The notes under the pieces: model-generated | Told to the model about the DNA's origin: nothing | Seen by the model: only the letters and a program-made list of their open reading frames with translations | Databases searched by the model: none | From: Collinsella aerofaciens | GTDB taxonomy: Bacteria; Actinomycetota; Coriobacteriia; Coriobacteriales; Coriobacteriaceae | Direction of reading: 5' to 3' | DNA length: 64,000 bases | Assembly (NCBI RefSeq): GCF_015548375.1 | Contig: NZ_JADMWW010000003.1 | Coordinates: forward strand, 62,001 to 126,000 | Shown: piece after piece, positions 4,877-47,442 of the stretch | How the letters are laid out: every line of letters starts with the position of its first letter | How positions within the stretch are numbered: position 1 is the stretch's first letter | Position numbers and translations under genes: made by a program

Positions 4877-5173
4877 CTATGCCCCCAGCAATTTTCGAGC
4901 CTGTTTGAGCACGGCCTCGCCGTTCATTGTCCCATACGCTGTCATATCAATCGGCTCCACCGGACAGTTCACTTGATTCTTAACCTTGTTGAGTTCAAAG
5001 CGAACCTGCGGTCCCAGCAGGATAACGTCGCTATCCGCATATTCCGCCGCTTGGTTGACAGGGTGCGCCTCGATGGTGCACACGAAACCGTCTTTTTCAG
5101 CCGCCTGTTGCATGCGCTGTACCAGCATGCTCGTCGAAGCGCCCGCAGCGCACATAAGTACGATATGTTTCAT
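4877..5173 (-). CDS. PTS IIB component, lactose/cellobiose family
   Basis: 98-residue cytosolic phosphotransfer protein. It begins MKHIVLMCAAGASTSML: Cys8 followed by AAGASTSML is the phosphorylated P-loop of the cellobiose/chitobiose IIB family. VILLGPQV in mid-protein matches the family's fourth strand. Phosphate goes from IIA to this Cys and then to sugar bound by IIC. It sits between the IIC and IIA genes in one transcription unit. Confidence 0.94.
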   Translation of the reverse strand: MKHIVLMCAAGASTSMLVQRMQQAAEKDGFVCTIEAHPVNQAAEYADSDVILLGPQVRFELNKVKNQVNCPVEPIDMTAYGTMNGEAVLKQARKLLGA

Positions 5174-5221
5174 CCTACGCTCCCAACCTCATGGAAAATG
5201 ATGGTGTGAATATGATAATCC

Positions 5222-6514
5222 CTATGCGGCCGATTCCTCGAGAGCGGCCTGCTCCTCTCGCAACGCCTGGCGATCAGCCATAAGGGTGAAGGGGGTATAC
5301 ATGAGCACCGACACCGCCAAAACCGCAACCGAGATCACCAGGCACCCGATGCCGCCCTGCATGAATGCGATGACCGGCTGGGGAAGCACCCAGGGAAGCT
5401 GAATCGTGGGATTGAACGCAGCCCCAAGACCGAGGGCGTAAAGCGCCTGGACCACGATGGCGCAGACCGGGATGTTCAGCGCGAACGGGATGAAGTACGT
5501 GGGATTCAGCACGACCGGCAGACCGAACATGAGCGGCTCGGAGATATTGAAAAGCGACGGAACAAGCGCGATGCCGCGAATCGCCTTGAAGCGCTCGGAC
5601 TTGGTGAAGAGCAGCGAGATGCTGATGCCCAGGGCGTTAGCCTGGCCACCGATGGCGGTGCCGAGCGCGACGACGGCCCAAGCGCCATAGGGCAGTGCCT
5701 CGCCCGCGATGATGGCCTCGGTGTTAGCAGCGCTGCAAGCCATGATTACCGGAGCGTAGAAGTTGAGCATCACGTTGGGGTGAACACCGAAGAACCAGAA
5801 GATCGACTGCAGCGAGCACACGATGATATAGGCCAAAGGAGAGGCACCGACCATCGTGACCGGCGTGCCGATCAAGGTGTTGATCATATCGAACAGGTTG
5901 CCCCACGGGGTGAAAGAAAGACCCCACTTGGCGAACCACACCGCAGTGAATAGCACGATGGCGGCAAACATCGGCGACAGCGAGTCTGCAACCATGGGCG
6001 GAACCATATCGGGGAGCTTGATTTCAAGCTTGCTCATCAAAATGGCTGTCACCTTCGGCACGATCAGGCCAAGCAGAATGGCGACGAAGATGCCGTTCGA
6101 TCCCATGTACGACGTGTTGATGAAACTCGCCATGGGAATATCCTCGAACGATTGCTGCGGCATGAATGCCAAAAACACCGCGCCGCTCACGATGCCACCG
6201 GTATAACCGCTAAGGCCGCATACCTTACCCCACCTCAAACCGATGAAGAAGGAGATGTATATACCCATCATGTTCATGGTAACGGTGAGGATGGAGTTGC
6301 CGGTCGCCATGAGACCGCTCGAAACCACCCAATCGGAGAACCCCGGAATGGGGAAGTTGATGAGAATCGCGATAACCGAGACGCCAAGGGTCATGGGCAG
6401 CGTGCACATCATGCCGCCCATGAGGGCGTCGAGCATCTTGCTGTCAGCAACCTTGCTTGCCACAGGTGCGATTGTCTTGTCCATTATGTTTTGGATCTTG
6501 TCGAATACCGCCAT
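5222..6514 (-). CDS. PTS IIC permease, lactose/cellobiose family
   Basis: Membrane channel that binds the beta-linked disaccharide and presents it for phosphorylation. 430 residues with about ten hydrophobic helices. It has features typical of cellobiose IIC: an N-terminal amphipathic segment (MAVFDKIQNIMDKTIAP), the conserved NISEPLMFGLPVVLNP region (about 320-335) and a C-terminal short cytosolic tail. By family precedent the substrate is cellobiose, chitobiose or an aryl-beta-glucoside. The neighbouring ChbG-like gene favours a chitobiose-like sugar, while GH1 enzymes favour beta-glucosides. The distinction is unresolved. Confidence 0.93.
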   Translation of the reverse strand: MAVFDKIQNIMDKTIAPVASKVADSKMLDALMGGMMCTLPMTLGVSVIAILINFPIPGFSDWVVSSGLMATGNSILTVTMNMMGIYISFFIGLRWGKVCGLSGYTGGIVSGAVFLAFMPQQSFEDIPMASFINTSYMGSNGIFVAILLGLIVPKVTAILMSKLEIKLPDMVPPMVADSLSPMFAAIVLFTAVWFAKWGLSFTPWGNLFDMINTLIGTPVTMVGASPLAYIIVCSLQSIFWFFGVHPNVMLNFYAPVIMACSAANTEAIIAGEALPYGAWAVVALGTAIGGQANALGISISLLFTKSERFKAIRGIALVPSLFNISEPLMFGLPVVLNPTYFIPFALNIPVCAIVVQALYALGLGAAFNPTIQLPWVLPQPVIAFMQGGIGCLVISVAVLAVSVLMYTPFTLMADRQALREEQAALEESAA

Positions 6515-43595: not shown

Positions 43596-43613
43596 CTTTT
43601 AATACCTTTCTAT

Positions 43614-43820
43614 AGATATAAATATCTTAATAATAGTAATAGCACTGACGAAACTGTTGATTACTCCCAAAGACGCAGGTCAGACCCAGAAAGAGAATCG
43701 ACAGCAACCTGTGTGCAAAAGGGGTGGTTTTCCACGTTCAAAACCTGCGCAAAACTTTTCATCACCGCGGATTGGGTTTTAGACACCTTATGCCCGTGGT
43801 TTCGACAAGTTTTCAACAGG
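43614..43820. other. oriC: Putative oriC in the dnaA-dnaN spacer
   Basis: An AT-only-rich tract (about 43611-43642) includes five tandem triplets TAA-TAA-TAG-TAA-TAG (43628-43642), resembling the DnaA-trio unwinding element. DnaA-box-like 9-mers follow: TTTTGCACA on the minus strand (43712-43720), TTTTCCACG (43728-43736) and TTTTCAACA (43810-43818). The latter 9-mer recurs upstream of the dnaA operon. The position, triplets and gene-strand switch agree; no experimental proof. Confidence 0.7.
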
Positions 43821-43833
43821 TGTCTCTATTTCC

Positions 43834-45558
43834 CTACGAGTGCAGTGTAATTTTATCGCGCAGCGACTTGAGGTCTTCGGTGACGGTGCGGTCTTCCTGG
43901 ATCATCTTCTGGACCTTTTTATAACTCGTGCTGACAGTCGAGTGGTTGCGGTTGCCAAATTCGGCGCCTACCGCCGTGGTCGTCATCTCGCACATTTCGA
44001 TGGCCAGGTAGATAGCGATATGGCGTGCTTTGGCGATATTGGCGTTGCGACGCGGGCCGATGAGCTCCTCGTGCGTCACGCCGTACTGCTCTTCGATGAC
44101 GGACTGAACCGTCTGGACGTTGATCTTTTTGGCCGATGTGTCGAAGTACTGGCTGGCGATGGCGTCGATATCGTCAAAGGTGAGTTCCCCACCCTCGCGC
44201 TCGCGGTCGCCCGCCTCGCCGGCGCAGCGCTCGCAGAAGCTCTCGAGTTCGCGGATGTTGGTGCCCGACACCTCTGCCATGTGCTTAAAGTGCTCATCGG
44301 TCAGGTGCCCGCCGTCGCCCCCGTAGGCCGCCAGCAGTGAGTCGTCGCCTGCCTCGGGAGCGGCGACGATGGTGTTCTCGTAATAGCGCTGCAAGATCTT
44401 GTATTTCATCTCGTAGCTGGGCTCTGCGACCAGGCAGAGCATGCCGGCGTTGAAGCGACTGGTCAGACGTTCGTCCATGCTCAGGTCCTTGGGGGCACGG
44501 TCTGCCGCGATGACGACCTTCTTGTTATTGCGGATGAACTCGTCCATGAGCTGGAAAAAGTAGTCCACGCTCGCACGCTTACCGATGATGTTTTGGATGT
44601 CATCGATGATGAGCACGTCCACGCCGTGGTACGCCTGCATGATGGGGGCGTTGCTCTTCTTTTGGCGGTCGAACTCGGTCATCAGGTCGTCCAGATATGC
44701 CTGGGAGTTGGCGTACTTGACCTTGATCTCGGGCGACTTCTCGGCGAGCTCGTTTTTGATGGCAAGCAGCAGGTGCGTCTTGCCCAGGCCCGATTTGCCG
44801 TAGATGAACAGTGATGTGCACGTGCCGCGCTCGTCCGCGAGGGCGGCAAACTTGAGTGCCGAGCGATAGGCATGGCTGTTCTCGGGGCCGTAGACAAAGT
44901 TCTCAAAGGTAAATTTTGAGTTCGCGGCGAGTGGGGCTCCATCCGTATTCTGCTCGGCCGGCACGGTCGGTGCTGGCATGGGTGAGGTGGGGGTCGCGGC
45001 TTGCGTGGATTTAGTCGGCGCCCCGCCCTTCATCTGGTTCATCATGCGACGAAAATCGTCGGCCGAGAGCGTGTTTTTGATTGCAATGCCCGAATCCGCG
45101 CCCGCCGCTGCGTCGTGAGCGATGGGCATGTGCGTGACGGGCGCGTTCGTTGGCGTCGCCGCCGCGGTCGGCAACGGTGCCATGGTTTCACGGGAAACAT
45201 CGCTGTGCTGGTGCTCGATTGTCGGCACGTCGCCTGCGGAGGCCGGTGCCGCCGGGGAAGCGGCGGGAGCCGTGGCGGGCGCCGTCGCGGCAGCGGATTC
45301 CGTTGCGGCGCCTTGCGGTGCCACGATGTCGAGCGCGATCGGTGCAAAGGCGATTTCTTCCAGATAGGCCTCAATAGTCGGCTGATGCTTTTTGAGCTGC
45401 GCGATGGCAAAGCGCGAGGGGGCCTCGATCGTGAGCGTATCTTCGGTCAGGCTTATGGCGCGCGATTGCCTCAGCATGTTGATGAGGCGTGCATCTTGGC
45501 CGTCGCGCTGGCAAAAGGCGATGGCGTCCCCCAGGATGATGCTTGCTTCCTCGTCCAC
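43834..45558 (-). CDS. dnaA: Chromosomal replication initiator DnaA
   Basis: 574 residues, longer than the usual 450-470. Domain I (1-85), a long Ala/Pro-rich linker (about 86-225), AAA+ domain III (YGKSGLGKTHLLLAI Walker A, LIIDDIQNI Walker B), and DNA-binding domain IV ending with the box-reading helix near EFGNRNHSTVSTSYKK. The linker explains the extra length. A parS-like 16-mer with two mismatches lies inside the linker coding region (45184-45199). GTG start after GGGAGAG. Confidence 0.96.
   Translation of the reverse strand: MDEEASIILGDAIAFCQRDGQDARLINMLRQSRAISLTEDTLTIEAPSRFAIAQLKKHQPTIEAYLEEIAFAPIALDIVAPQGAATESAAATAPATAPAASPAAPASAGDVPTIEHQHSDVSRETMAPLPTAAATPTNAPVTHMPIAHDAAAGADSGIAIKNTLSADDFRRMMNQMKGGAPTKSTQAATPTSPMPAPTVPAEQNTDGAPLAANSKFTFENFVYGPENSHAYRSALKFAALADERGTCTSLFIYGKSGLGKTHLLLAIKNELAEKSPEIKVKYANSQAYLDDLMTEFDRQKKSNAPIMQAYHGVDVLIIDDIQNIIGKRASVDYFFQLMDEFIRNNKKVVIAADRAPKDLSMDERLTSRFNAGMLCLVAEPSYEMKYKILQRYYENTIVAAPEAGDDSLLAAYGGDGGHLTDEHFKHMAEVSGTNIRELESFCERCAGEAGDREREGGELTFDDIDAIASQYFDTSAKKINVQTVQSVIEEQYGVTHEELIGPRRNANIAKARHIAIYLAIEMCEMTTTAVGAEFGNRNHSTVSTSYKKVQKMIQEDRTVTEDLKSLRDKITLHS
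45184..45199. other. Near-consensus parS inside dnaA
   Basis: GGTTTCACGGGAAACA differs from the parS consensus TGTTTCACGTGAAACA at two positions. It encodes the VSRET stretch in the DnaA linker, where the protein is least constrained. Confidence 0.55.
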
Positions 45559-45573
45559 TGTCTCTCCCGTTCT

Positions 45574-46962
45574 TTAGCTCTGAGCTCGCACGCGAGCGGC
45601 GCCGAGTTCGGTCAGATGGTATTTCTGGCCATGCTTGATGACCAAGCCAGCCTGCGCCAAGTCATTGAGCGTGCGTGACCAAGTGGGGGCCGAGTTTCCA
45701 AACGCCCTCGCCAGATCGGTTGCACCGCACGCTTGATTTTGCGCCAAATAGCCCAGTGCGGCGTTGCCGCGATCGCTTACGAACACGTCCGGTTGTGGCT
45801 GCGCATACTGATTTGCTGCATTAGGATACATCATTTGAGCTGCTGGTTGTTGAGAACTCTGCATCGGCGGCATTTGCTGTTGAAAACTTTGAGGCCACTG
45901 TTGGTAAGGCTGCGGAGGCATCTGCTGGGCCCAGGGGTTGTACTGCTGCTGCGGCATCTGCTGGGCCCAGGGGTTGTACTGCTGCTGCGGCATCTGCTGG
46001 TACGGCTGCTGATATCCCTGCTGGTACTGCTGCGGGAACTGCTGGCCATACCCCAGTGGCGGCATCTGCTGATATGGATATCCCTGTTGGTACGGCTGAT
46101 AGCCCATTTGCTGGCCACCCGGTGCCCCTGTCGCCTGCTGCATTGCTGCTGTATCCTGATCCGCCAGCGACATGGCCTCTGGCATGCTTGGCGGCATCGA
46201 CATCGATGCCGCTTGGGGTTCTTGTGTAGGAGGCATTCCGGGCTGCTGCATCTGTCCCACGGGGGGCTGCATCTGCTGCGTTGCCATGGGCTGCTGCGCA
46301 AAAGCTCCCGGCAGGGGATATGTGGGCTGCTCCGTCTCGGGCCGCACGGCAGCGTCGCGTCCGCCGGCACGCTCGATTTCCTGCACGCGTTTAGGGTTCA
46401 GGCTTACCGTAACCACGGTGCCTTTGCCCATGTTGTCCTCGATGGATACGGCACCGCCGGCGTTTTCCAAATACTCCTGCACCATGGGAAACCCTGCTCC
46501 GGTTCCACGGATATAGCGCTTCATCTTGCTGTTTGCGCTGGTAACGCCAAAGTCGAAAGCACGTTCCTTGTCGTCGATGCCGGGTCCTTGGTCAGCAAAG
46601 CGGATGGTGTCTCCGCCGTCCAGAATCGAGATGATGGGCTCGGCAAAGTGTGCGTGGATAAAGTTTTCGACAATCTCGCGGATGACCATGAGCGAGATAT
46701 GGCCACCTTGTTCTTTCATGCACTGGTAGACGGTGTTGGTCGTCTCTTCCAAATACGTGCGGACATCTTGCGGATCAATGACGATCACCCGCGGTGTCGA
46801 CAGCATGTCGTCATAGACGGCGATGCGCGCGGCGTACATGGCTTTTGGCGCCTGCGTGGTCGTCTGCTCGCCTTCCGCACGCTCTTCGCGCACGCCGGTG
46901 ATGTGCTCGTTGTCGGGTGCCGGGTCTCCGGAATCGACCATGGTGTAAAAGTCGTCAGACAT
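45574..46962 (-). CDS. GHKL ATPase with Gln/Pro-rich linker and winged-helix end
   Basis: 462 residues, not a known named gene. The N-terminal GHKL ATPase resembles anti-sigma kinases such as SpoIIAB: N-box REIVEN (95-100), G1 DQGPGI (124-129), G2 GTGAGF (153-158). No phospho-accepting His domain. Residues about 215-385 are Gln/Pro/Met/Tyr-rich with a 12-residue tandem repeat (QYNPWAQQMPQQ). The last 75 residues look like a winged helix (LGYLAQNQACGATDLARAFG...SRTLNDLAQAGLVIK). It is 15 bases upstream of dnaA on the same strand, hence almost certainly cotranscribed. Confidence 0.82.
   Translation of the reverse strand: MSDDFYTMVDSGDPAPDNEHITGVREERAEGEQTTTQAPKAMYAARIAVYDDMLSTPRVIVIDPQDVRTYLEETTNTVYQCMKEQGGHISLMVIREIVENFIHAHFAEPIISILDGGDTIRFADQGPGIDDKERAFDFGVTSANSKMKRYIRGTGAGFPMVQEYLENAGGAVSIEDNMGKGTVVTVSLNPKRVQEIERAGGRDAAVRPETEQPTYPLPGAFAQQPMATQQMQPPVGQMQQPGMPPTQEPQAASMSMPPSMPEAMSLADQDTAAMQQATGAPGGQQMGYQPYQQGYPYQQMPPLGYGQQFPQQYQQGYQQPYQQMPQQQYNPWAQQMPQQQYNPWAQQMPPQPYQQWPQSFQQQMPPMQSSQQPAAQMMYPNAANQYAQPQPDVFVSDRGNAALGYLAQNQACGATDLARAFGNSAPTWSRTLNDLAQAGLVIKHGQKYHLTELGAARVRAQS
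45921..45992 (-). repeat. Two tandem 36-bp coding repeats
   Basis: Units 45921-45956 and 45957-45992 are identical and in frame, encoding the duplicated NPWAQQMPQQQY-type segment of the linker. Confidence 0.9.
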
Positions 46963-46989
46963 GCCGCTCGCAATCTTTCAAAAGGTTTC

Positions 46990-47110
46990 GAACAAATAGT
47001 AGCTCACCGTGCAACGTTTCTCATCTTTCGGCAACTTTTCAAAACTTGTTGAAAACTTTGGAAAACGGACGAAAAGTTCTCAACATTGCCAACATGACCT
47101 GTTGAAAACT
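46990..47110. promoter_or_regulatory. Cluster of DnaA-box-like 9-mers upstream of the dnaA operon
   Basis: TGTTGAAAA (reverse of TTTTCAACA) occurs at 47047-47055 and 47100-47108, TTCTCAACA at 47077-47085 and TTTTCAAAA at 47037-47045. The same 9-mer stands at 43810-43818 near the putative origin. This suggests DnaA autoregulation or a second origin half. Otherwise 46963-47200 is empty. Confidence 0.55.
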
Positions 47111-47205
47111 CGATGAAATATCGTGAAAAGTTGCCATGCACCGCTAAATCGAGCTTGGCTTATGGGGGAACCGTGTGAACTGCGCAACCTTTTACCTTTG
47201 ATTTC

Positions 47206-47235
47206 TTGACATTTGAACATTGATTTCCCTACAAT
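47206..47235 (+). promoter_or_regulatory. Promoter of rpmH-rnpA
   Basis: Perfect TTGACA, 18-base spacer, TACAAT. It lies about 70 bases before rpmH. Confidence 0.82.
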
Positions 47236-47307
47236 CTTCAAGCTCACGTGTCTATATCTGCGTCCGCGTCCCCGCGGACACTCGAAATGCAGCAGGAGGA
47301 ACTTAAG

Positions 47308-47442
47308 ATGAAGCGTACGTATCAGCCTAATAAGCGTAAGCGTGCCAAGACCCATGGCTTCCGTGCCCGTATGGCCACTAAGGGTGGTCGTGCCGTGCTC
47401 GCCCGTCGTCGTGCCAAGGGCCGCAAGCGTCTCACTGTCTAG
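47308..47442 (+). CDS. rpmH: Ribosomal protein bL34
   Basis: 44 residues, entirely typical: [18 protein letters not shown] then [24 protein letters not shown]-like end. Strong ribosome site AGGAGG before the ATG. First gene of the plus-strand run leading away from the origin. Confidence 0.97.

Follow-up and report, generated by a model that had tools for sequence, protein, structure and literature searches.

A GHKL ATPase with a predicted winged helix encoded beside dnaA: a candidate regulator of replication initiation in several bacterial phyla

In Collinsella aerofaciens, the gene directly upstream of dnaA encodes a 462-residue protein that joins a GHKL-type ATPase domain to a predicted C-terminal winged helix, and genes of the same design precede dnaA in many deep-branching bacteria of several phyla. 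An ATPase of apparent DNA-binding type in this position is a strong candidate for missing replication control. Among bacteria other than E. coli, B. subtilis, and Caulobacter, many lack any known regulator of DnaA; mycobacteria are one example (PMC5720831). The gene described here supplies a concrete candidate for such a regulator, with a constant place beside dnaA in several phyla, common human gut genera included, and brings a neglected gene family to light.

The gene and its operon setting

The window is the whole stretch of DNA analysed, 64,000 nucleotides of a C. aerofaciens contig (NZ_JADMWW010000003.1). Its relevant features are as follows.

45574 to 46962, minus strand: whole gene for the GHKL ATPase/winged-helix protein, 462 residues (ORF with an ATG start)
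46363 to 46851, minus strand: GHKL domain, residues ~38-200 (Pfam HATPase_c; AlphaFold pLDDT mostly 80-97; structural match to 3lmm)
46645 to 46683, minus strand: N box IREIVENFIHAHF, containing E96, E99, N100, and H103 (conservation in alignment A3)
45793 to 46362, minus strand: low-complexity linker, residues 201-390, predicted to be disordered (composition, pLDDT)
45577 to 45792, minus strand: C-terminal winged helix, residues 391-462, with a recognition helix at ~425-437 (predicted structure, MarR-type fold matches)
45559 to 45573, minus strand: 15-bp gap between the gene and dnaA, with a GGGAG ribosome-binding-like sequence (direct reading)
43834 to 45558, minus strand: dnaA, downstream of the gene
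43596 to 43833, no strand: dnaA-dnaN gap, a second candidate origin block, with TGTGCAAAA at 43712 and TTTTCAACA at 43810
46963 to 47307, no strand: intergenic region between rpmH and the gene, with variant DnaA-box-like sites TGTTGAAAA at 47047 and 47100
47036 to 47055, minus strand: dyad TTTTCAACAAGTTTTGAAAA, the only match in the genome to the dyad pattern with 0-1 mismatch
47308 to 47442, plus strand: rpmH, the divergent neighbour across the strand switch

The minus-strand order is the 462-residue gene, dnaA, dnaN, recF, a DciA-like gene, and gyrB. The preliminary description placed the gene 15 bases upstream of dnaA and exactly at the strand switch; counting the gap and comparing the strands of the gene, dnaA, and rpmH bear out both points. 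The whole genome carries a single copy, the remaining matches being weak ATPase-type hits in other reading frames (E 3e-5 to 5e-4), and the region of the start codon is kept in the alignment of family f1. Because no terminator-like site was seen between the gene and dnaA and the 15-bp gap contains GGGAG, the two genes are likely co-transcribed.

Linkage to dnaA and distribution

The position beside dnaA is nearly obligate. Among 234 distinct genes collected, 222 loci show dnaA in the same stretch; in the other 12 the sequence ends at or soon past the gene, in some cases since complete chromosomes are numbered from dnaA. The gene was counted directly upstream of dnaA on the same strand in 219 of the 222 loci, a figure that rises to 221 once the over-extended dnaA starts of L254 and L256 are corrected. 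In the sole exception, L062, the GHKL gene alone is reversed, and it still adjoins dnaA. Recurrence of both domains in this position in 221 of 222 loci is not a product of chance. The median gap between the gene and dnaA is 16 bp, and 30 loci have a gap at or below 0 bp; in these the stop of the gene overlaps or touches the start of dnaA, which suggests translational coupling.

The preliminary description had held up conservation beside dnaA across Coriobacteriia as a point to check. Strong matches (E below 1e-20) occur in 171 of 199 Coriobacteriia genomes. Of the remaining 28, 18 have no dnaA match in the assembly and are uninformative, in 2 a contig end truncates dnaA, and 8 carry dnaA but not the gene (G162, G061, G029, G131, G139, G008, G011, and G020). 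The gene is therefore present in ~95% of informative genomes and does not move freely among relatives; the linkage is both stronger and wider than had been stated. In G162, a weak match (E 4e-4) lies where the gene would be expected, upstream of dnaA (locus L141, ~5115-5564), and is possibly a decayed remnant.

Outside Coriobacteriia, a profile search detects family members in many further families of Actinomycetota, and wherever a locus shows both genes the member lies upstream of dnaA. Many other Actinomycetota lack the gene. A collection-wide scan, made by protein and not by locus, returned 339 relatives. In the best 80 of these 339, essentially all lie before dnaA where the contig extends to it. 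The lineages represented include Armatimonadetes, ANGP1, Candidatus Aquicultor, Candidatus Hakubella, Anaerosomatales, UBP13, and Clostridia. The gene is carried by 38 of 43 genomes of the phylum that contains Armatimonadetes CSP1-3 and ANGP1, which we take to be GTDB Sysuimicrobiota. In a Bacillota-type phylum it occurs in ~21 of 199 genomes (~10%), before dnaA in every strong-match locus examined.

The ATPase domain

Pfam HATPase_c covers residues 93-189 of the window protein (E 3.5e-11, above the cut-off) and matches all 35 family members scanned. In alignment A3, the N-box Asn (N100), the G1 motif DxGxG (D124, G126, G128), and the G2 motif GxGxG (G153, G155, G157) are invariant, as is H103, and E96 and E99 are at least 90% conserved; across 30-38 diverse members the N, G1, and G2 box residues are invariant or nearly so. 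These features place the protein, as the preliminary description proposed, in the GHKL ATPase superfamily.

Within that superfamily, the N box points to the GHL type. Its sequence, REIVENFIHA, places a Glu four positions ahead of the Asn, and the GyrB of the window does likewise when the two are compared by eye. The genome's own histidine kinases carry Asn at this i-4 position, where the 462-residue protein has Glu96. Since the N, G1, and G2 boxes are conserved and a Glu occupies N-box i-4, the site is likely of the active ATPase type and not that of a histidine kinase. A two-component histidine kinase was rejected on the same Glu96 and on the absence of HisKA/DHp among the Pfam hits listed for the window protein and 35 members. 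The N-box pattern E-x-x-[DE]-N is shared with GyrB, MutL, and Hsp90 (WEIVDN in the window GyrB, REIVEN here), but the 462-residue protein is much shorter than these and lacks the Toprim, transducer, and other GHL domains.

The winged helix and the linker

An AlphaFold model of the window protein, built with 37 relatives as input, shows two well-predicted domains, residues ~38-200 and 391-462, with pLDDT of 40-52 in between. A second model, built on a relative with a short linker, concurs with this two-domain picture. The preliminary description read the C-terminus as a winged helix, and the prediction sustains that reading. Residues 391-462 are modelled with pLDDT of ~87-98, and comparison of the predicted structure with many MarR-type chains gives Z scores of 11-13 and an rmsd of ~1-2 over ~70 residues in most rows. 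The winged helix is present in both models, and the matched MarR structures include DNA-bound ones. When the C-terminus is searched alone, its winged-helix Pfam matches fall below threshold, and some relatives exceed the cut-offs. Together these comparisons argue for a predicted fold of MarR/IclR type.

The linker is a length-variable spacer, and conservation is confined to the two end domains. In the window protein it consists of ~30% Q, 18% P, 10% M, and 10% A, and its coding DNA contains a 36-bp tandem repeat (2.6 copies at 45909-46000). Many very close relatives are 450 residues long, shorter by 12 residues, or 36 bp, which is one repeat unit, and it is this correspondence that identifies the linker as a spacer. 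Across relatives it ranges from almost nothing to ~230 residues and is biased towards A/G/P, Q/P, or other compositions. The Gln/Pro/Met richness noted at first is thus real in this protein and local to it, not a conserved trait.

Relationship to known systems

The preliminary description knew no named homologue, and the searches agree: the family goes unnamed in Pfam and NCBIfam models, and open-licence papers, a scope in which absence is not proof, yielded no description of a dnaA-linked GHKL-winged-helix gene. The closest fold to the GHKL domain is DIP2311 of Corynebacterium diphtheriae (PDB 3lmm; Z 14.4, rmsd 2.6 over 149 residues), at only 13% identity; a long, low-TM Foldseek alignment to it also covers much of the second, short-linker model. 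We take DIP2311 to be an AlbA_2/GHKL/winged-helix regulator of COG2865. At ~550 residues, with a large N-terminal part, it differs from the window protein and is not known to be tied to dnaA. Pfam finds no AlbA_2 match, the mark of COG2865, in the window protein or the relatives scanned.

The label "anti-sigma-like" in the preliminary description captures only a distant kinship. The strongest outside match to the family profile is a 140-residue HATPase_c_2 protein, and SpoIIAB, RsbW, and RsbT, which belong to HATPase_c_2, share a short ATP lid with GPGI...GxGxGLP. All 35 members scanned match HATPase_c; HATPase_c_2 (PF13581) was not matched by the window protein or three relatives scanned singly and is absent from the 25 families most matched by the 35 members. 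Unlike SpoIIAB, RsbW, and RsbT, the 462-residue protein also has an extra winged helix, and no sigma or STAS partner is nearby.

Hda, YabA, SirA, and Soj would resemble the protein in possible purpose only, their folds being different. The closest characterised logic is that of CapK and CapS, in which a GHKL protein and a helix-turn-helix control an adjacent operon (PMC13373217). CapK is a GHKL kinase with the order HTH-STAS-GHKL that acts on a separate STAS-wHTH repressor, CapS (PMC13373217), whereas the 462-residue protein joins GHKL, linker, and wHTH in one chain, in the opposite order and with no STAS match.

The probable origin region

DnaA-box-like sites flank the gene and dnaA on both sides. 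The sites between rpmH and the gene in the window are variants; in relatives, this gap holds dense TTWTNCACA boxes, and TTATCCACA and TTTTCCACA occur 128 and 110 times, respectively, in 59 kb of such gaps with both orientations pooled. As DnaA-box blocks lie in both the rpmH-gene and the dnaA-dnaN gaps, the gene probably sits inside a bipartite origin. Conserved DnaA boxes crowd the gap upstream of the gene, which makes it probable that a single promoter under DnaA control serves both the gene and dnaA. Across the window, cumulative GC skew reaches its minimum at ~22 to 44 kb and then rises, which is compatible with an origin at this locus, not decisive for one. The dnaA-dnaN gaps of many loci contain boxes together with TAGTAGTAG-type repeats that resemble DnaA-trios.

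The dyad upstream of the gene is strongly conserved, with counterparts in most loci of the family. A head-to-head pattern, TTTTC(C/A)ACA-N2-TGT(G/T)GAAAA, reaches a best score of at least 15/18 in 161 of 204 loci, whereas only 17 of the 204 reach that score in the remaining ~7 kb, and the dyad is found in 51 of 94 loci, where shuffles give at most 2. We considered it as a dedicated operator of the winged helix and rejected it, as 7 of the 10 gene-less Actinomycetota inspected have similar dyads close to dnaA. Dyads also lie near dnaA in further gene-less genomes, and some gene-bearing lineages use another spacing or lack the dyad. Because it occurs upstream of dnaA in gene-less Actinomycetota too, the dyad is more simply read as a pair of DnaA boxes, a DnaA element, and no operator specific to the GHKL-winged-helix protein was found in the upstream gap.

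Proposed function and alternatives

The protein pairs a domain of DNA-docking type with one of ATP-cycling type, and its gene stands first before dnaA, probably under a shared promoter; the simplest meaning of this arrangement would be regulation, close at hand, of dnaA or the origin. The explanation that we prefer, tentatively and with some doubt, is a DNA-binding regulator, gated by ATP, whose action is local to the dnaA operon or the origin. The gene would be the first of a gene-dnaA transcription unit, and the winged helix would dock on DNA near the dnaA promoter or the origin. The GHKL domain would bind, and probably hydrolyse, ATP through its GyrB/MutL-type catalytic Glu; the nucleotide state, likely through dimer closure, would alter the protein's hold on DNA, and this altered hold would set dnaA expression and, through it, initiation. 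That such a protein couples energy state to initiation, as the preliminary description proposed, is a guess. Several observations weigh against the local-regulator explanation. There is no sign of special co-evolution with DnaA: distance correlations are 0.68 with DnaA and 0.77 with DnaN, and mirror-tree support for a DnaA contact was discarded on this ground. Eight Coriobacteriia live without the gene, and vertical inheritance alone can keep linkage tight near an origin.

The same DNA-docking and ATP-cycling domains might act on DnaA or the origin itself, and not on transcription, with the winged helix tethered at the DnaA-box array and the ATP cycle promoting or blocking DnaA assembly. The place of the gene between two DnaA-box blocks and its near-obligate linkage to dnaA speak for this reading, which is nonetheless unlikely, if worth serious consideration, given the missing DnaA-specific co-evolution. 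It is improbable that the targets lie elsewhere, in stress, DNA damage, or chromosome organisation, and that the linkage to dnaA is a frozen ancestral gene order. The order rpmH, dnaA, dnaN, recF, gyrB is itself ancient, and trees of the gene and of dnaA resolve into the same groups, in keeping with ancient vertical inheritance of the two together. Yet in five rearranged, Eggerthellaceae-like loci (L059, L067, L069, L071, L073) the gene and dnaA have been inverted together, as one unit, with respect to dnaN and rpmH, so that the pair holds while its neighbours part from it, and the genomes searched yielded no copy of the gene independent of dnaA. A Ser/Thr protein kinase like SpoIIAB, RsbT, or CapK, localised by the winged helix and phosphorylating DnaA or a regulator, is very improbable. 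The outside HATPase_c_2 match (E 1e-16) favours it, as does the precedent of CapK, a GHKL kinase that controls a DNA-binding repressor whose gene lies upstream of its operon (PMC13373217), but HATPase_c_2 is not among the main Pfam matches of the family and the operon lacks a STAS partner. A STAS-dependent kinase in particular is weakened because several gene-bearing genomes (G004, G012, G039, G054, G058, and G001) have no STAS match.

Taken more broadly, and to be held as a possibility open to real doubt, the family, which spans at least four phylum-level groups, may be an ancient class of replication-initiation regulators. In this class a GHKL ATPase of GyrB/MutL type with a winged helix, encoded in the dnaA operon, would use ATP to govern either the expression of dnaA or the assembly of DnaA at a bipartite origin.

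DnaA-box variation among relatives

The dyad with 2-bp spacing is often followed by a third box at a fixed distance, in several phyla and with or without the GHKL gene. Whether the dyad tracks the recognition helix of the winged-helix protein and not DnaA was also considered; the pattern is suggestive in Coriobacteriaceae, where some DnaA proteins keep RDH and the dyad shifts to TTTTCAACA, and too confounded to be retained. In the f2 (Atopobiaceae-like) loci, such as L034-L052 and L248-L259, the R-D-H of DnaA domain IV is replaced by R-S/T-H. Origin boxes in the same loci shift from TTWTNCACA to TTWTNAACA (10 versus 66, compared with 346 versus 183 in loci that retain RDH; Fisher p ~2e-18 on sequences that are not phylogenetically independent, with low counts in reversed-motif controls), which suggests that DnaA-box specificity is altered in this group.
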